Shown here in pieces: positions 35,428-47,089 of a stretch of 64,000 nt of DNA. This DNA comes from Bacteroidota bacterium. GTDB lineage: Bacteria > Bacteroidota > Bacteroidia > UBA8524. The notes beneath the pieces were generated by a model that saw only the letters and a list, made by a program, of their open reading frames with translations, was not told the DNA's origin and searched no databases. Numbering within the stretch: position 1 is the first letter of the stretch; each line of letters opens with the position of its first letter. The position numbers were made by a program, and so were the translations under genes. Location: assembly GCA_008933805.1 (NCBI GenBank), contig WBUH01000006.1, forward strand, positions 1 to 64,000. Direction: 5' to 3'.

Positions 35428-38400
35428 CTAATATTTTATCGCTTTTGAAATACCAAGCACCACGCCTTTATCTGATTTGAAAGTAAACAATATTAATCCG
35501 CTTGGAATGCCATCAAGAGAAATTTGAGTAAGATTATCCGATAACTGGACTTGTTTTAAGAGCACCCCGCCACTGCTATAAATTTCTAACAGGGCATTAG
35601 GGTAATCATTCTCAATAGTTATAACGTTTGACCTAATTGGATTTGGATATGTATTAATGCCTTTTACAGGGTCGTAAAGTCTATCATTTCCAAGATTTAT
35701 TATGCTAATGGTATCAGAGAATGATTCACACATATTATTTGAAACAATCACTTGGTAAAGACCATTACTTGTTGCTGAATAAAAGCTATCGGTTGCACCG
35801 TTAATTCTATTACCATCTAAAACCCATTGGTTGTTTTTGTTTGAACTACTGAAAAGTGTAAAACTTAGTCTTTGAATAGTTGGTTTTGCAGGGTATTGAT
35901 ATACATTAATTTGCTGAGGTTGAGTAGAAGTATCGCACCCTTCTGGTGTTTTAACAACTAACGAGTAGACTCCGCTTTGCCTAACAAAAATCCTAGAAGA
36001 GGATTCTTGTAATAACGTAGTATCCTTATACCAAAGGAACGAAACATTTGGGCTGGCTGTTGCAATAATTTCAGTGCTGTCGTCCTCACAAAAGGCTGTA
36101 TCAGAAGCAACAAAAGAAGCGGTCGGGTTCAAAAAAACTTTTACAGGCTTAATAGAGGAGTCCTTACACTGATGAATAGTGTTTACTAGTAATTTAACCG
36201 TATAATTTCCGGAAGTATTAAATCTTTTACTTGTTCTTACCCCTGCATCATTACTCCCGTCACTAAAACCCCATAGCCTGCTTGTGCTATCAACATGGGA
36301 AACTGTATCGGTAAAAATAAAATTGTTCTTATTGACACACTGTTCTTCTTTATTTATTGAAAATGAAGCCGATGGTGAGTTAAAAACATACACACTATCA
36401 TACGCAGTGTCTGAACAATATACTCTTCTTGCAATAAGGCCTATATGGTACTTACCCTCCTTTGTATAGCTTTTAGAATATAATGCTAAAGTATCCGTTA
36501 CCATTGAGTCCCCTGTAAGCCATAACCTTGAATACAAACTGTCTTGACTATCAGAAGAGTCGCTAAACAGAAAAAGATTATTGTTAAAACATTGGGTAGG
36601 AGTGTTATTGTTTATTGTTGCTGTCGGCGATTTTCCGAAATGAAATTGTCTTTCAAGTGAATCTTTGCAGCCATCAACAGAAACTACCAGCTGTATTTTA
36701 GTGCTCCCTTCTGTTAAATACGACTTTGCAGCATTCAAGGAGGTTGCTGTTGTTCCATCTGAAAACTTCCACAAACGGGATACAGAACCAACAGCATTTT
36801 TTATTTTAGAAGTATCTGATAATGTAACATTGTATGGTGTTTCGCAAAATAAAGTATCGTTTGCAGTAAAGCCTACTCCAAGCGTTACATTAGATATTCT
36901 TAATAACTGTCCATTATCATCGGCTATTAAGGCAGGATTACTACTTCGTACGCGAACTCTGTACTTGTTTCCGGCAGGTAGATTTGATGGCAATTTTGCA
37001 ACTATACTGCCACTCCTATTCTGATATGCACTACCAATAATTACCGGGTTAGAGAAACAACCATCAGCGTCACTTAGCTCAACTGTGAAAACATTACCAC
37101 CGTTAGCTCCATATCTAATACTGTATGGAACGGTTATAGATGTACCGGGACAGTTTAACGTTGTTGAAACATTATTTGTTTCTAATTTATTTTTGATATT
37201 AATCCTAAAAAAATTTTTATAGGTGTAATATGGATTAAATGTTGCTACGCCGCTTGTATAAACCTTATCGTCGCTAACAAAAACACTGGCCATATCGTAA
37301 TCGGGATGAAACTTCATTGGCTCCCATCCCGATAAAACTTTCCCTAGCCCGGTATCAACTGCCGCAAATCCTTTATACGTTTCTCCGCCAACAAAAACCT
37401 GAAGCCCAGCGATAAAGATAATACCTTCATATCCGTCAATACCGCGAACTAAAGCAGTTGTATTGGGATTCCAGCTTTTCAAGGCTCCTGTTTTGGTATC
37501 AAAGGCCGCAACGTTATTCCTTGTTTGCCCATTAATTGTATTAAATAAGCCACCTACGTATAACACTTCATTATGTATTTTAAGGCATTGTACTGTAGCA
37601 CTTGAACTCATATTTGCATTCCAGCCGGTAAGTGCTTTTGTGTTCAGATTTAAAGCGGCTATACAATTACGAGTTTGGCCGGCAACTGTTGTAAAACGAC
37701 CTCCGACATATAATGTGTTATTAAAAGAGGTTATAGCATTAATATAGTTGGAGAAAGATACGTTAAAGGAAGTGAGGCTACCCGAAGATAGATTTAACTC
37801 AGCCAAGCTTTTTCTGGAAATACCATTAATAGTAGTAAACCCACCACCCATAAAAAGAGAGTTTCCAATTTTATGCAGAGATGTTACAGTACCATCAAAT
37901 AAAAGATTCAGACTTTCTAGTTTACCACTGTTAAAATTTAGTGACGCAAAGCAGGTGCGTTTTTCGCCTGCAACTGTATCAAATGAACCTGAAATGTATA
38001 AGAAACTGTCATTAACTGCAATTGACGATAATCCATATTTATTTATATATGGACGTAGAGGTAGAACCGCACCCGTTTTAGTGTTAATTGCGGCAAGTTT
38101 AGTTCTTTTATACCCGCCAATAGCGGTGAAAAGCCCCCCAACATACACACCCTTTTTACTATCGGCAACAGTAAATGCCTTGTCTAGTACATCTGTCCCC
38201 CAATCGACTATTGCGTTTGTTTTAATATTAATAGCTGCCAGATAATTCTTTGTATTACCATTTACTTTATTGAAACTACCGGCAAAGTAAAGAGTGTCTC
38301 CATGCATTGCTATTTCTGATACAATATCATTAATGAGAGGTGGAGAAAAATTTGTTACTGCTGTGGTATTAATATTAATTGAAGCAATACTTCTTCTGCT

Positions 38401-40311
38401 TACACCCCCTACAAAACCGAACTTTCCGCATAGAAATAATGTATCTCCTACACCAAGCATATTATAAACAGTACCTGAAACTTGGGGATTCCATGAAGTT
38501 AACAAAGTTTTGGATGGAATATCAAAAGCTTTTAGCTTACCGGCATACTCTGCTACTATTAATTTGTCCTTGTTAACATAGAAAGTAGTAATCGAGCTTG
38601 AAAGCACCTCGGTCCAACCGGTTTCTTTTCCTGTAGAAATATCTACTTCGGTAAAGACATCGGAAGTACCGCCAGAAAAACCCTTTAACAGATATGCTCT
38701 ATTTCCACTAAGCTCTATCTGGCTTTTAACATTTAACGGATGCCAATCTAAGAGCTTGTTTTGTTTTAAATCAACCGAATAGGCACTATTTCTCGGAGCA
38801 CCGCCAACAGTAGTAAAACTACCGCCAATAGCAATTTTGCCGTTACCAACAATAACTTTGTAAACCCATGGAAAATCAGCTCCATATTCATGAGCTGTAA
38901 TATTCTTAGAGAAAAAATCGTATTGTGCTGTATAGGCATTTACGGATGCGACGCATCTCACTTTATTACTTCCTACACTATCAAAAAATCCACCGATGAT
39001 TAATGAGCTATCAACGAATGACATAGAAGAAACCGCTGCGTTATGACTTAAATTAGCATTCCATGGTAATAAAGCATAGGTTGTCGGGTCAAAAACTGCA
39101 ATGCCGTTTCTTATAGTGTTGAAGTTTGACCTAAGAAATTTTCCGCACACATAAATCTTATTATCCTTTACTGCAATATCATATACATCGTCGCTCAGTC
39201 CTAAAATAGCTACTCTATCCAGCATACCTGTGCTTAGGTCATAGCTTACTAAACGGTTAAAGTTGGTTGCGTAAACATATCTGAAAGCACCCCCAACATA
39301 TAACATATTATTCCAAACACATAAGGCATGAATGCTTTCTATCGGATCTGGAGTCCATGATGTTGCTGAACCGTTTGACAAACTAACTTGCGCCAAATAT
39401 TTTCTATTTTGTCCTCCTATGGCAGTAAAGCCTCCTGCAACAATAGCGGTGTTGTTGTAAAATGCAATTTGATTCACCGGAGCATTAGGGGCAGGATTCC
39501 ACGATTTTAATAATCCTGTGTTTAAATCAACCGCTACTAAGTATTTTCTGCTCTGTCCAAAAACTTTGCTAAACCAGCCACAGATGTATGCTGTATTATT
39601 ATGAATTTTAACAATATTTACTCCCGAATCTAATTGAGGGTCCCATGCTAATAAGTTCCCTTCACAGTCAAGTCGGGCAATGTATTTTTGCTCCTTTTCG
39701 CCCACCTTAGTAAATGAGCCAACTACAAACCAACCCCCATCAGGTTCAGGATATATATCATAAACTGGCCCATTAAATGTTGGCACATTTGCACTAATTT
39801 TCTTCGTTTGAGCATCAAAAAGAGCAAACCTATTTTGCTGGTACTGCCCTACTATAGAGAAATTTCCTGCAACATAAAGAGTATCATTTCTAAGCGCAAA
39901 ATCGGATATACTTCCATTTGTGCCATAGTTACTTAATAGCGATGTTACCTTTCCGGAACTATCAATGTGAGCGACATTATTTCTAACTGAATCCCCAACT
40001 TTGCTGAAAGATCCGCCTATAAAAAAGCCATCGTTTCCATCAGAAATAACTTTTGATACTGCTCCGTTTGGCTTGGGCCATGTTCCGTTTACTCCGGCAT
40101 TATTATGAGCGACTAATCCGCCAAAAGTACTGCTACTATCACCCCCATACACCTTTGAAAAATTTCCTCCAATAAAAAGAGTATCTCCCTTTTTTGCATA
40201 TGTTGAAATCGTCCCGTCAGTTTGAGTAAAATCAAGATCAACCGTTTGTGATTTTAAACTATTGCTAACTAAAGATATAAGAAAAACAAAAGGTAATAGG
40301 TATTTATTCAT
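35428..40311 (-). CDS. Giant T9SS protein with about 45-residue propeller repeats and PKD-like domains
   Basis: A 1627-residue secreted protein. Signal peptide MNKYLLPFVFLISLVSNSLK. Residues about 30-1080 are many copies of an about 45-residue unit of the form LYVGGRFTTVAGQTRNCIAA followed by LNLNTKALTGWN, a delta-60/PQQ-like propeller family. Residues about 1080-1500 include Ig/PKD-like units (SRLWKFSDGTTATSLNAAKS). The C-terminus is a T9SS type A domain: KGINTYPNPIRSNVITIEND, LEIYSSGGVLLKQV, IPSGLILFTF and SKAIKY. Structural or adhesive surface role inferred. Confidence 0.9.
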   Translation of the reverse strand: MNKYLLPFVFLISLVSNSLKSQTVDLDFTQTDGTISTYAKKGDTLFIGGNFSKVYGGDSSSTFGGLVAHNNAGVNGTWPKPNGAVSKVISDGNDGFFIGGSFSKVGDSVRNNVAHIDSSGKVTSLLSNYGTNGSISDFALRNDTLYVAGNFSIVGQYQQNRFALFDAQTKKISANVPTFNGPVYDIYPEPDGGWFVVGSFTKVGEKEQKYIARLDCEGNLLAWDPQLDSGVNIVKIHNNTAYICGWFSKVFGQSRKYLVAVDLNTGLLKSWNPAPNAPVNQIAFYNNTAIVAGGFTAIGGQNRKYLAQVSLSNGSATSWTPDPIESIHALCVWNNMLYVGGAFRYVYATNFNRLVSYDLSTGMLDRVAILGLSDDVYDIAVKDNKIYVCGKFLRSNFNTIRNGIAVFDPTTYALLPWNANLSHNAAVSSMSFVDSSLIIGGFFDSVGSNKVRCVASVNAYTAQYDFFSKNITAHEYGADFPWVYKVIVGNGKIAIGGSFTTVGGAPRNSAYSVDLKQNKLLDWHPLNVKSQIELSGNRAYLLKGFSGGTSDVFTEVDISTGKETGWTEVLSSSITTFYVNKDKLIVAEYAGKLKAFDIPSKTLLTSWNPQVSGTVYNMLGVGDTLFLCGKFGFVGGVSRRSIASININTTAVTNFSPPLINDIVSEIAMHGDTLYFAGSFNKVNGNTKNYLAAINIKTNAIVDWGTDVLDKAFTVADSKKGVYVGGLFTAIGGYKRTKLAAINTKTGAVLPLRPYINKYGLSSIAVNDSFLYISGSFDTVAGEKRTCFASLNFNSGKLESLNLLFDGTVTSLHKIGNSLFMGGGFTTINGISRKSLAELNLSSGSLTSFNVSFSNYINAITSFNNTLYVGGRFTTVAGQTRNCIAALNLNTKALTGWNANMSSSATVQCLKIHNEVLYVGGLFNTINGQTRNNVAAFDTKTGALKSWNPNTTALVRGIDGYEGIIFIAGLQVFVGGETYKGFAAVDTGLGKVLSGWEPMKFHPDYDMASVFVSDDKVYTSGVATFNPYYTYKNFFRINIKNKLETNNVSTTLNCPGTSITVPYSIRYGANGGNVFTVELSDADGCFSNPVIIGSAYQNRSGSIVAKLPSNLPAGNKYRVRVRSSNPALIADDNGQLLRISNVTLGVGFTANDTLFCETPYNVTLSDTSKIKNAVGSVSRLWKFSDGTTATSLNAAKSYLTEGSTKIQLVVSVDGCKDSLERQFHFGKSPTATINNNTPTQCFNNNLFLFSDSSDSQDSLYSRLWLTGDSMVTDTLALYSKSYTKEGKYHIGLIARRVYCSDTAYDSVYVFNSPSASFSINKEEQCVNKNNFIFTDTVSHVDSTSRLWGFSDGSNDAGVRTSKRFNTSGNYTVKLLVNTIHQCKDSSIKPVKVFLNPTASFVASDTAFCEDDSTEIIATASPNVSFLWYKDTTLLQESSSRIFVRQSGVYSLVVKTPEGCDTSTQPQQINVYQYPAKPTIQRLSFTLFSSSNKNNQWVLDGNRINGATDSFYSATSNGLYQVIVSNNMCESFSDTISIINLGNDRLYDPVKGINTYPNPIRSNVITIENDYPNALLEIYSSGGVLLKQVQLSDNLTQISLDGIPSGLILFTFKSDKGVVLGISKAIKY

Positions 40312-40496: not shown

Positions 40497-40614
40497 TTTA
40501 ACTCACCCCAAAGTGTTAGAAAGACAATAATTACCCAACTTTTCCCTCTCTACATTTTAGAGAGGGCCGACTATTGGCTTTGGTCAGAGTGCTGGTACTC
40601 GAGGGGAGTTAAAA
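40497..40614. mobile_element. MITE-like element, copy A
   Basis: 118 bp bounded by terminal inverted repeats TTTAACTCACCCC and GGGGAGTTAAAA, with an internal stem CCCTCTC / GAGAGGG. Shares most of its length with copies B and C. The stop codon of the DUF559 frame lies in its right terminal repeat. Confidence 0.8.
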
Positions 40615-40973
40615 CACGGCACTTAACTTCTCCAAAAACCCCCTTGTGTTTTTTACCTCCTCATTTTTAAAACGTACAATAGTCAATCCCATTTCGGCAA
40701 TTATTTTATCGCGGTGTTTATCATAATCTTTTTGAAAGTCATGGATAGTGCCATCTAACTCTATCACTAACTTTTTATCCGCACAATAAAAGTCAGCAAT
40801 GAAAAACAATTTACGGGTATCATAATTTCCGTATATGATAGGGTATTGTCTCAAAAACTTTAGCCCCATAAATTTACGGTTGCGCAATAATTCCCAAACA
40901 ATCTTTTCGGAAGGGGTGCTACGCTTTCTTAAATCCCGACAAAACTCTTTAATAGATTTCGCTTGCTATCCAT
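40609..40973 (-). pseudogene. DUF559 (Vsr-like) endonuclease gene with a 5' frameshift
   Basis: The frame is open from 40965 to 40609 and reads IKEFCRDLRKRSTPSEKIVW, then ELLRNRKFMGLKFLRQYPI, FFIADFYCADKKLVIELDG and IIAEMGLTIVRFKNEEV. This matches the DUF559 family of Vsr/restriction-like nucleases, with D, ELDG and the late RF strand. It has no ATG in frame near its beginning. An ATG at 40973 in another frame reads MDSKRNLLKS, the usual N-terminal look of the family, so one base is probably lost or gained near 40935-40950. ORF finders would start at an internal ATG or other codon at 40887. It sits between MITE copies A and B. Confidence 0.75.
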
Positions 40974-40997
40974 TGTGTTAATTGATAGCGTTAATTC

Positions 40998-41117
40998 TTT
41001 TAACTCACCCCAAAGTAAAAGTTAGCAAGACTCACCCAACATTCACCCTCTCTAAATTTTAGAGAGGGCCGACTATTGACTTTGGTTAGAGTGCTGGTAT
41101 TCGAGGGTGAGTTAAAA
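40998..41117. mobile_element. MITE-like element, copy B
   Basis: 120 bp with terminal repeats TTTTAACTCACCC and GGGTGAGTTAAAA, a perfect 13-bp match, and an internal stem CCCTCTCTAAA / TTTAGAGAGGG. Confidence 0.85.
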
Positions 41118-41141
41118 CAAGGATTAATATTTGGCAAAGAT

Positions 41142-41765
41142 TTAGTTTCCCGTTTCAGTATTATTAAATGTTGTATTACCAGACACGGTAGTGAAGTCAT
41201 CTGTTTGGGATTTATTACCGTCGTAAATTATTGATACACCTTTTTCAGAGATGATTCCACTGTGTTTTTTTGGAATATCTTTTATAAGAAAATACTCTTC
41301 TTCGCGCTTTGTTACTTTAACATTCTTAATATCTTTTTTCAATTTATGTACTGCCTTTTCAAATTCTTCAAAAAAACATTCTAATACTAATATTATTTTA
41401 CCGTCTCTCTCATTTAAATGATCTTTTTGAGAAGCATTACTTATCTGCATAGATGTTAAGTAAAACTTGTCACCGGGTCGATATTGATGAATTAAAGGGC
41501 AACGTAAATCGGCGTATAATAATTTATTATTTGTTTTATACCAGTTTTTATTAAAATATTTCAATCCATTTTTAAATCTTATTTCAGACATTCTTTCTTG
41601 ACTGAAATTCTCCGTATCTTTAAAGCTCCCTAAAAATTCTATCCCAATAACCAATACAATAAAAGCCACAAAATCGTTATTGCTTTCTAATAGTCCTTTA
41701 ATATCTGTAATAATTGTATCAAGATGTTCAGGGGAAATTGTGATAGAGGTGGTTTTACTTTTCAT
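41142..41765 (-). CDS. Hypothetical protein with possible HEPN-type RxxxxH motif
   Basis: A 207-residue, AT-rich, helical protein. Residues about 30-55 are hydrophobic (DFVAFIVLVIGIEFLGSF). LLYADLRCPLIHQYRPGD near residue 92 contains R-x4-H, the catalytic pattern of HEPN RNases, here inside a helix-like context. The C-terminus is Thr/Asn/Gly-rich (DDFTTVSGNTTFNNTETGN), similar in style to the amyloid-like tails seen in prokaryotic conflict proteins. HEPN assignment is inference from one motif. It lies between MITE copies B and C. Confidence 0.55.
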   Translation of the reverse strand: MKSKTTSITISPEHLDTIITDIKGLLESNNDFVAFIVLVIGIEFLGSFKDTENFSQERMSEIRFKNGLKYFNKNWYKTNNKLLYADLRCPLIHQYRPGDKFYLTSMQISNASQKDHLNERDGKIILVLECFFEEFEKAVHKLKKDIKNVKVTKREEEYFLIKDIPKKHSGIISEKGVSIIYDGNKSQTDDFTTVSGNTTFNNTETGN

Positions 41766-41838
41766 AGTAAAAATTAATTATCAAAGATAAATGTTAAAAA
41801 CAATTTCTGATATACAACCAAAAAGTACAATCAACTAT

Positions 41839-41956
41839 TTTTAACTCACCCCAAAGTAAAAGTTAGCAACCATTCCCCAACTTCCCCCTCTCTAAAATTT
41901 AGAGAGGGGCGACTGTAGGGCTAGGTTAGCGTACCGATAATCGAGGGTGAGTTAAA
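41839..41956. mobile_element. MITE-like element, copy C
   Basis: 118 bp with terminal repeats TTTTAACTCACCCC and GGGTGAGTTAAA and internal stem CCCTCTCTAAA / TTTAGAGAGGG. Same orientation as A and B. Confidence 0.85.
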
Positions 41957-42017: not shown

Positions 42018-42623
42018 ATGCAGTTTCCGTCGCAAACACTTGAGCAGTTGGTGAACCAGTTTGCAAAATTCCCCGGCATTGGCAAAAAAACAGCCCTGCG
42101 CATGGCGTTGTTTATGCTGAAGCAACCCGATAACGAGGTGCGGGAGATGGGCGAGGTAATCTCTACCCTGAAAGAAAATATTAAATACTGCCAAGAGTGC
42201 GGCAATGTGAGCGATAACGACATTTGCGAAATATGCGCCGACCACCGTCGCGATCATACAACCCTTTGTATTGTAGAAGACCTTCGCGACGTGATAGCCA
42301 TTGAAAACACAGGCCAGTACACAGGCATCTACCACGTGCTGGGCGGCATGATTGCCCCCGCTGACGGTATTGGTCCCGACGACCTAAACATGAATAGCCT
42401 GCCCGAACGTATTGCCAAAAACGACGTCAAAGAGATAGTGATGGCACTTAATGCAACCGTTGAAGGCGATACCACCGTGTTTTATCTAAGTAAAAAACTA
42501 AAAGGCACGGGTGTAAACATCAGTACGCTTTCCAAAGGCATTGCCGTGGGCGGCGAACTGGAATATGCCGATGAGATTACACTCGGTCGCTCTATACTTA
42601 ACCGTGTGCCTTACCAAATTTAG
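42018..42623 (+). CDS. recR: Recombination mediator protein RecR
   Basis: A 201-residue protein of standard length. It has an N-terminal helix-hairpin-helix (FAKFPGIGKKTALRMALFML), a zinc finger with CQECGNVSDNDICEIC near residue 56, and a Toprim domain starting TTLCIVEDLRDVIAIENTGQ near 80, with VLGGMIAPADGIGPDDLN. It ends in the usual EITLGRSILNRVPYQI. With RecO (and RecF) it loads RecA on gapped single-stranded DNA. It sits 12 nt upstream of the glycosyltransferase gene. Confidence 0.97.
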   Translation: MQFPSQTLEQLVNQFAKFPGIGKKTALRMALFMLKQPDNEVREMGEVISTLKENIKYCQECGNVSDNDICEICADHRRDHTTLCIVEDLRDVIAIENTGQYTGIYHVLGGMIAPADGIGPDDLNMNSLPERIAKNDVKEIVMALNATVEGDTTVFYLSKKLKGTGVNISTLSKGIAVGGELEYADEITLGRSILNRVPYQI

Positions 42624-44652: not shown

Positions 44653-46581
44653 CTACTTTGGAATATTCTTCAAGCTTGGGTTTTCTTTTGTATAATATTC
44701 TCCAACAACTAGGTTACTATTATTTAACTCCGCACTTATATATGAAGTTGTATAAATGATTTGGTAAGATTCTGGGGCATAATTAAGGACTCTATTAATA
44801 AGCAGGTTTTGAAAATTTTGTGCTCTTGGCATTTCAATTCCCTTATCCTCCATATTATCCGCAAAAATAAACCGTGGAAATCTCATACTATCTATAAATA
44901 GTGATGCTAAAAAAATTGAAAACCTCGCAGAAACTTTTAGGTAAAAATTTGAACTTGCTGAATATTTTGAAAATTTATTTGATAAGAAGGTCATGTTGTT
45001 AGAATAATCAATAAAAAAGTCGTTAGCATTTTTAAACTCATCTTGTCTATCAAGGTCATTGTTAAGTAAATAAACCCCTTCTTCCCTTACCTTTTTATTA
45101 ATTTCTTCTTTCAGTTTTTCCTGTTTACTTTCTGTATTAAAGATATAGGATTTTAAGAATTTTATTTCCTTCTCTAGTTGAGATTTTTTTTGAATAAGCT
45201 TATCATATAGCTCAGCTTTTTCAAGCATTGTTCTGTATTGAAGAATCTCCCCTTCGATAAATCCCTTCATACTATTCAGGTTGTCAACTGTTTCTTCATT
45301 AAATGACTTAACGTCATTTAATGCGTCATTTATACGCTTTTGGGTATCCTGTAGCTTACCAAGCTCAGCGGTGTATTTCGCCTCAAATTCTAAAAGAATT
45401 CGTTTATTCGTTTCCAGTAGCTTTTGTGATTCATTAATTTGAAAGCCAATTTCTAATTCCATTCTTCTAGCTTGAACCACACCAAAGGACTGATCGATTG
45501 GCTCTTTACAAAGCTTACATTTTGAGTGGTCTTCACTTTGTTTAATTTTGGTAAGGCATTCGGGACAATACTCTAAAGGAAGATTACCTAGAAATTCTCT
45601 AGTATTAATAGAGTTTTTCAGTGCTTTTATTTTCTTGTTTAAGGTTTCAATAAAAAAAGAAGAATCTTCAATTTCGTTGTTTAAAATATTAATATCCTTT
45701 TCTATGTTTAAAACTTTTTTCCTTTGCTCAATAGACTCATCTGTTAACTTTTGAAACAATAGTTTTGAATTCGTTTCATACTTAATTTCTTTTTCCTTAT
45801 TTCTAATTGAAACGATTTCATCCTGTATTTCAGAAATTTCTTTTTCCTTGTTTGCAATTACTGTAGCAATATGCTCTGGGTTTAAAAGATGTTCGTCTGA
45901 AAAAAAATGACTTGCGGCTTTTATTTCGGTTTTTATATCATCTAGTTCCTTTTCAGCAACTATTAATCGTTTTTTATTTTCATATAATTCTTCATTATAA
46001 ACGCCCAGTAGTAAATCAGAAACGGTTTCTCTAGTCAGTTGACTATCAAAATGTTCATAGTAGAACAATGAATTTGTCGGCGAATCTTGGTCAATATACA
46101 ACAGCCTTAGAATTTGATGAAAAGTAATATTACTATCACCTTTAACGATAGGCAAGCCTAGTAGTTCAAATAAAATATTTGAAAAACTCTTCTTGTTTTC
46201 TGTGGTTTTATAGCCAAATTTTTGCCACGTTTTATCCACAGGAGGGTTAAGACTTTCATCCATAGAGCCCCAAAAAAAGTATAGGGGTGCTTGGGCGATT
46301 ATTTTCCCTTCTCCATCTTTCTCTATGTACCGTTTAATGGTTAAAACCGCTGAATTTACTTCAACCTCCGCAGTAACGTGAGAGCATTTTCTTGCTTCAG
46401 GGACAAAGTCATTAAATGCTCCACCTAAAACAAAAAAAATGAAATGTGTAATCGTTGACTTCCCGCTACTATTATCCCCCCGAATGATGTTTACACCTTT
46501 ATGGAAAATCTCGTCATAAGCAATCCTGTCATTTTCTGCAATAATTCGCAGCCTTCTTAGAAACAAATTATTACGCGTCAT
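44653..46581 (-). CDS. SMC/Rad50-like ABC ATPase with zinc hook, ABC-3C ATPase component
   Basis: A 642-residue ATPase. Walker A GDNSSGKST is at residues 35-43. Two coiled-coil arms (about 190-330 and 365-510) flank a CPEC...CKLC zinc-ribbon hook at about 339-358. A C-terminal half (FPRFIFADNMEDKGIEMPRA near 570) carries a Walker-B-like strand with Asp-Asn rather than Asp-Glu, as in some conflict-system ABC ATPases. It overlaps the upstream gene by 11 nt. In ABC-3C systems (classified by Aravind and colleagues) this subunit is thought to sense nucleic-acid or nucleoprotein changes and license an effector. Assignment to ABC-3C rests on gene order and motifs seen by eye. Confidence 0.7.
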   Translation of the reverse strand: MTRNNLFLRRLRIIAENDRIAYDEIFHKGVNIIRGDNSSGKSTITHFIFFVLGGAFNDFVPEARKCSHVTAEVEVNSAVLTIKRYIEKDGEGKIIAQAPLYFFWGSMDESLNPPVDKTWQKFGYKTTENKKSFSNILFELLGLPIVKGDSNITFHQILRLLYIDQDSPTNSLFYYEHFDSQLTRETVSDLLLGVYNEELYENKKRLIVAEKELDDIKTEIKAASHFFSDEHLLNPEHIATVIANKEKEISEIQDEIVSIRNKEKEIKYETNSKLLFQKLTDESIEQRKKVLNIEKDINILNNEIEDSSFFIETLNKKIKALKNSINTREFLGNLPLEYCPECLTKIKQSEDHSKCKLCKEPIDQSFGVVQARRMELEIGFQINESQKLLETNKRILLEFEAKYTAELGKLQDTQKRINDALNDVKSFNEETVDNLNSMKGFIEGEILQYRTMLEKAELYDKLIQKKSQLEKEIKFLKSYIFNTESKQEKLKEEINKKVREEGVYLLNNDLDRQDEFKNANDFFIDYSNNMTFLSNKFSKYSASSNFYLKVSARFSIFLASLFIDSMRFPRFIFADNMEDKGIEMPRAQNFQNLLINRVLNYAPESYQIIYTTSYISAELNNSNLVVGEYYTKENPSLKNIPK

Positions 46582-47089
46582 ACTTGCTTTCCATTAAATT
46601 GGTTCTACTCTTTAGACCATCAGTTCCAAATAATGACATATTATTAAATTGCGAAGTCATTAATGCTATGACGTTTTTCTCTTTAGGGGACAAATCTCCA
46701 AGCTTATCAACAAAATCTACCAAAATATTTTTACTTATAATTAGTATTCTTTGTTGATTTAAAAAAGATTTTTCAATTATTTCATAAGAGGCAATACAGT
46801 TAAGCGCCGCTAATTGATAGGGCTTTATTTTTTCAAATATTTTTCTGTTCTCCGTAATCCTCTCATAAGGATTATTCGAATCCTTTATAAATTGTTTTCT
46901 TATTTTTCTTATATCAGACTCATTTTGTTTTAATCTTATTTCATGAATTTTACTTGGAAAAAGAAAATAGAAATCCCAAATTCTTATTCGTTCAATTTCA
47001 ATAATATCTTCATTATTAAATTTATTTAAAAAATGAAGCAATCTAAAAATTGTATGATATAGGTCAAAAGCTTGATTATATACTATCAT
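46571..47089 (-). CDS. Putative ABC-3C middle component
   Basis: A 172-residue helical protein without signal or membrane segment (MIVYNQAFDLYHTIFRLLHF). It contains winged-helix-like stretches (EDIIEIERIRIWDFYFLFPS) and ends NLMESKYDA. Its start overlaps the upstream gene by 14 nt and its stop overlaps the ATPase start by 11 nt, a tight operon. Size, position and the FxxDFYFxFP-like block fit the middle component of ABC three-component systems, which bridges the ATPase and the C-terminal-domain protein. Family identity not verified. Confidence 0.6.
   Translation of the reverse strand: MIVYNQAFDLYHTIFRLLHFLNKFNNEDIIEIERIRIWDFYFLFPSKIHEIRLKQNESDIRKIRKQFIKDSNNPYERITENRKIFEKIKPYQLAALNCIASYEIIEKSFLNQQRILIISKNILVDFVDKLGDLSPKEKNVIALMTSQFNNMSLFGTDGLKSRTNLMESKYDA

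Follow-up and report, generated by a model that had tools for sequence, protein, structure and literature searches.

E. coli BoxC, PIT and triplex repeats have been known for decades and occur widely, and to our knowledge the mechanism by which they spread has so far been left unexplained. Rickettsia palindromic elements (RPE) are palindromes lying in frame in protein-coding genes, as do the DUF559 units described below; we know of no nuclease gene associated with RPE, whereas DUF559 travels with the palindromes here. In REP/REPIN sequences and their RAYT enzymes (TnpA-REP, 'REPtrons'), palindromes are likewise dispersed, the enzyme gene is flanked by two of them, and the type is specific to the enzyme lineage. 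The enzyme there, however, is an HUH Y1 (IS200-like) transposase rather than a PD-(D/E)XK/Vsr-like DUF559 protein; moreover, the DUF559 palindromes are longer and of the CCCTCTCC/TCACCCC type, and DUF559 units are also located in frame inside essential genes. BoxC/PIT/TMECO repeats have a hairpin and mirror-strand motif in common with the DUF559-flanking elements, but a mobility gene had not been linked to those repeats before (PMC4666352), and no mobility activity was found near triplex repeats by Holder et al. 2015 (PMC4666352).

Among nucleases, EDxHD homing endonucleases (I-Bth0305I) resemble DUF559 in fold and in a host-gene site that is occupied in some species and not in others, whereas DUF559 has palindromes on both sides that are specific to its lineage and are also dispersed without it. 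Unlike intein and intron homing endonucleases, DUF559 in-frame inserts are devoid of a Hint/intein domain, none being detected at E<=1e-5 in the seven in-frame proteins scanned. The Vsr fold is common to Vsr, Caulobacter VsrA and DUF559, and VsrA, itself a DUF559 protein, is needed for an SOS response, for which the authors of that study propose double-strand breaks as the possible cause (PMC12907096); Vsr and VsrA have, however, been interpreted as nucleases of mismatch repair that are linked to cytosine methylation, and palindromes are not described there. A literature search of open PMC papers found no connection between DUF559 and palindromic repeats.

Three palindromic elements around a DUF559 gene

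The window, that is, the whole 64-kb stretch of DNA that was analysed, belongs to contig C6 of a 4.29-Mb genome (G000), which its genes and the loci retrieved with its proteins would relate to Bacteroidota. Three alike elements with matching ends and an inner hairpin, as described in the sequence-only reading, were confirmed on its + strand: A (40497-40614, 118 bp, hairpin 40544-40566), B (40998-41117, 120 bp, hairpin 41046-41068) and C (41839-41956, 118 bp, hairpin 41886-41908). With B as the reference, identity is 85% for A (E 1.9e-31) and 83% for C (E 9.7e-29). The termini have the form (T)TTTAACTCACCCC / GGG(T)GAGTTAAA(A), with terminal inverted repeats of 12-13 bp, a feature that the elements share with a MITE of a known insertion sequence. 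The ends of A are TTTAACTCACCCC and an imperfect GGGGAGTTAAAA, those of B are TTTTAACTCACCC and GGGTGAGTTAAAA, and the inner palindrome CCCTCTCTA..TAGAGAGGG is present in each of the three. The coordinates also bear out the layout that had been reported: A and B flank the DUF559 frame, B being upstream of it, the nuclease stop codon (TAA, - strand, 40611-40609) is indeed supplied by the right end of A, and B and C flank a 207-aa ORF. C, a solo copy, is located immediately upstream of a recR-like ORF (42018-42623), and element A is adjoined by a gene for a probably secreted protein of 1627 aa that contains PKD domains and repeats of the beta-propeller type (35428-40311, - strand).

The genome-wide search proposed earlier was carried out with a model (R1) built from seven copies, namely A, B, C, three on contig C12 and one on contig C11, and returned approximately 17 separate places in the source genome at E<=0.05, no place in four genomes of the same family, and seven weak places in genome G011. 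In those copies of the source genome that were read, no adjoining transposase gene was seen, and inspection by eye of the sequence next to A, B and C gave no clear target-site duplication. On contigs C12 (~17.8-24.1 kb) and C11 (~100.4-101.5 kb), several different palindromic repeats form nests in which they adjoin one another; relatives of A-C are among them, as are palindromes of the GTCATTCCCGC..GCGGGAAT type.

The DUF559 (PF04480) frame consists of 115 codons and the TAA stop (40609-40956, - strand), and against a Pfam cut-off of 20.6 bits, the ATG-less short ORF 40609-40887 scores 74.3 bits and the whole frame (40624-40953) 97.9 bits. Because the frame, open to 40956, holds no in-frame ATG and the ATG at 40973-40971 is shifted out of frame by one base, the gene is probably a decayed copy (or mis-assembled). 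Its earlier description as a nuclease remnant is reasonable in this light, and its putative catalytic residues, E16, D54, E65, D67, H71 and D78, are still intact. These residues are kept in nearly all of 61 aligned standalone DUF559 proteins, whose invariant positions are T, E, W, Q, DF, E-x-DG, H and D. As modelled (pLDDT 89.6), the protein is a nuclease of the Vsr/EDxHD homing-endonuclease fold, with 3hrl as the best match (Z 14.1), I-Bth0305I as the second-best (Z 11.7, rmsd 2.2 over 89), and Vsr (1cw0) at Z 9.3 (rmsd 2.0 over 93). In the nuclease tree, it falls into a supported clade (99/92) marked by a short insertion after RQxPI, to which palindromes of the AACTCACCC/CCCTCTCT type are common across families. 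The motif ACTC[ACT]CCC / GGG[AGT]GAGT is found on both sides of the gene in four of seven members of this clade, in one of 54 other genes (p 3e-4), and at none of 2211 random places.

The 207-aa ORF between B and C (41142-41765, - strand) had been called HEPN-like, a description supported by an Rx4H motif conserved in the alignment of the protein with its homologs and by structure comparison. The best structural matches are HEPN or HEPN-related, with AbiV at Z 7.9 (rmsd 4.3 over 117 residues), although the model is modest (pLDDT 66.8) and a Z of ~7.9 is common among helical proteins; a Pfam search with the protein gave no match. Homologs are sparse (16 of 295 genomes, its own counted), and matching flanking repeats were found at none of eleven homologous loci (scores 18-33, none >=40). 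The notion that this gene is a mobilised passenger therefore finds no support and was discarded, and because its homologs elsewhere are free of flanking repeats, the gene is probably a bystander between B and C.

Palindromes beside DUF559 genes across phyla

All three DUF559 genes of the source genome are flanked by palindromic repeats, of three unrelated sequences, and a wider survey was therefore undertaken. PF04480 is present in 121 of 247 genomes of the class, with up to 11 matches per genome in some. The survey set comprised 60 small standalone DUF559 loci, the window locus not counted, and a two-sided repeat was scored when the 250-bp flanks aligned to each other at a score of >=40. Matching repeats on both sides were found at 42 of the 60 standalone DUF559 genes versus 10 of 496 among the remaining ORFs at these loci (Mann-Whitney p 8e-28). 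In a second, independent set of 80 named loci, they were present at 24 of 39 loci in Bacteroidota and at 7 of 12 in other phyla, the non-Bacteroidota loci belonging to Myxococcota, Acinetobacter, a cyanobacterium, a planctomycete, Patescibacteria and Chloroflexota. At the threshold used, about 30-38% of standalone DUF559 genes are without a two-sided repeat.

Earlier counts of perfect-stem and imperfect-stem hairpins gave an enrichment too, but the G+C filter applied to imperfect stems missed A-C, and flank-to-flank alignment together with a triplex-motif scan was adopted for this reason. DUF559 domains within large ORFs proved invalid as a negative control, in that they are in-frame insertions whose flanks had been taken at the ORF ends; the valid controls for the flank tests are the other ORFs of the loci surveyed.

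Within a genome, the flanks are unrelated (scores 18-39) in 26 pairs of DUF559 genes at <=54% identity, whereas two pairs at 65% and 85% identity have flanks in common. Between genomes, flanks are shared by 36% of pairs at >=60% identity and by 1% or less of pairs below 50%. As judged from these alignments, palindrome type follows nuclease lineage, not genome, and the survey shows lineage-specific palindromes flanking small DUF559 genes in many bacteria. Tandem arrangements also occur: two DUF559 genes lie ~570 bp apart in each of two genomes (G062 and G060), and on contig C5 of the source genome (~16.4-17.4 kb), ~140-bp units with GTCCTCCTCGGGAGGAGGA hairpins are arrayed in tandem after a DUF559 gene.

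A hairpin with a mirror third-strand motif is found within 300 bp of 72 of 116 standalone DUF559 genes versus 15 of 433 control ORFs (odds ratio 46, p 6e-44), and a triplex-type motif is near 2 of 137 control ORFs under 200 aa. The DUF559-flanking motif corresponds to the intrastrand-triplex repeat BoxC/PIT/TMECO. The published triplex pattern is matched exactly in five of ten DUF559-bearing genomes, with no matches for a reversed control, and in two Acinetobacter genomes the single exact copy sits in the flank of a DUF559 gene. The compact pattern CCCTCNCCC N3-6 GGGNGAGGG N3 GGGNGAGGG is present in many other DUF559-flanking elements and absent from A-C; because the spacers of A-C are ~35 nt, these are set apart from the compact motifs and classed as a spaced-out relative. 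A control search for PF04480 in 14 well-known genomes matched Caulobacter and Corynebacterium and no others, and some genomes may carry BoxC without DUF559.

In-frame units, solo copies and empty sites

The DUF559 domains of large ORFs are mostly palindrome-DUF559-palindrome units placed in frame within enzymes, and palindromes adjoin the domain in 16 of 20 and 18 of 25 cases in two sets. Hosts identified by Pfam are LeuS, MetH, IleS, acetyl-CoA synthetase and a methylmalonyl-CoA mutase, to which RecG, HisF, UvrA, MazG, ValS and others can be added as judged by eye from sequence. The palindromes are translated in these inserts, giving peptides such as PNPSPKERG and PLSLGEGQGER. In LeuS, the insert of ~160 aa, DUF559 included, maps between positions 236 and 240 of 1h3n. 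In distant taxa, inserts recur at one and the same position of a host gene, as in LeuS (~320), MetH (~1090) and RecG (~450). In a nuclease tree that is short (107 columns) and partly resolved, inserts of different hosts can be sister nucleases, namely LeuS with Mcm (99/95) and MetH with PP2C (100/83), which suggests that DUF559 units have changed host gene.

Evidence of duplication and dispersal comes from several genomes. In one of them (G138), two otherwise unrelated DUF559 loci share essentially a ~1.1 kb repeat-gene-repeat block together with further repeats. The link between copy number and nuclease is drawn from one genus of five species, in which the two species that carry the cognate DUF559 have 60 and 49 matches to the left element, and the three remaining ones have 9, 4 and 0; these searches show that solo copies abound in species with the cognate nuclease. 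Solo copies of full length in this genus measure ~170 bp, and their ends are constant (AAATCCTCC..GAGGGATTT) and their flanks unrelated. Two solo elements of the genome G093 have no counterpart at the orthologous sites of G147; another palindromic element occupies the first of these sites, and the second is complicated by a tandem gene copy. At the first (locus L206, 108-206), the element in G147 is unrelated (TCTGAACCTTGATTCACTTGATTAAAGGATT...), and the site has been used twice.

The metH site was followed in 31 congeners of the genome G198, of which seven have the full unit. Among the metH loci read, two have a short palindrome alone and eleven are without the unit, ten of the latter having 7-52 bp where the unit has ~460. 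The aligned loci show full, palindrome-only and empty alleles at one orthologous site, and losses could be included in this polymorphism. Presence/absence polymorphism, the lack of which had been set beforehand as the refutation of mobility, is therefore seen in homologous systems (G093/G147 and metH), evidence that pertains to related systems in other genomes, no second species of the window's genus having been found.

A proposed nuclease-driven element and its alternatives

The preferred reading, to which we assign a probability of roughly two in three, treats A, B and C as copies of one palindromic mobile element, a nuclease-driven selfish element whose full form is palindrome-DUF559-palindrome and whose gene-less copies are non-autonomous. 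Because palindromes flank DUF559 across phyla and palindrome type tracks nuclease lineage, DUF559 appears to be a gene belonging to the element itself; within palindrome-DUF559 units, no separate transposase gene was detected. The nuclease would nick or cut DNA at the palindromes, perhaps recognised when extruded as a hairpin or triplex, or at the target site, and host repair would then copy the element into the break without a transposase. We infer that DUF559 itself drives movement. In the window, A-DUF559-B would constitute one unit, its nuclease probably decayed, and C a further solo copy.

The main rival is homing, in which a free-standing DUF559 endonuclease would invade existing BoxC-like palindromes, these being its targets and not its own ends, and would spread by double-strand-break repair through the flanking repeats. 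Such a course fits the position of the homing endonuclease I-Bth0305I as the second-best fold match, the recurrence of LeuS, MetH and RecG inserts at fixed positions across distant taxa, and the two metH genes with a palindrome alone at the insertion site; yet these two stand against eleven empty sites, so that most nuclease-free metH sites are without any palindrome. In addition, different nuclease lineages in one genome have unrelated palindromes, where shared targets predict otherwise, and congeners without the cognate nuclease have few or no solo copies. Homing into palindromes is thus considered unlikely.

A lower probability still is given to the view that a recombinase or a host process moves the palindromes, the DUF559 gene being cargo as in the sequence-only reading. 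The action of DUF559 on palindromes is deduced indirectly, and palindromes occur also far from any DUF559 gene, both of which would suit a passenger; but a single gene family would then have to serve as cargo across phyla, with cargo lineage predicting palindrome type, and cargo would be expected to vary; at its homologous loci elsewhere, the 207-aa gene lacks flanking repeats. What stands of that view is a set of mobile, non-autonomous-looking elements with a nuclease in the arrangement, whereas the nuclease as a mere passenger does not agree with its being flanked across phyla by lineage-matched palindromes. That ordinary, terminator-like intergenic hairpins lie beside DUF559 by chance or owing to long intergenic regions is highly improbable, for although the elements lie mostly between genes, in genomes where short palindromes abound, the motif is rare at other ORFs of the same loci, units sit in frame within enzyme genes, and the palindromes are lineage-specific.

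Beyond the window, the nuclease-driven element may represent a cross-phylum selfish class, in which a Vsr/homing-like DUF559 protein mobilises BoxC/triplex palindromes without a transposase, both intergenically and in frame in essential enzymes, and of which E. coli BoxC/PIT would be relics; for this broader proposal, the odds appear even. A lineage-matched nuclease beside palindromes across phyla provides a direct, testable candidate for the spread of BoxC-type repeats. If the proposal is true, a transposase-free kind of mobile element would be added, DUF559 genes would gain a role, and in-frame inserts in tRNA synthetases, MetH and RecG, otherwise annotated as odd fusions, would be explained.

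The window also contains likely Lamassu/ABC-three-component defence genes (44653-47089, - strand), of which the AAA ATPase matches LmuB (1e-39) and the small protein matches MC5 (1.6e-42) and, weakly, LmuC.
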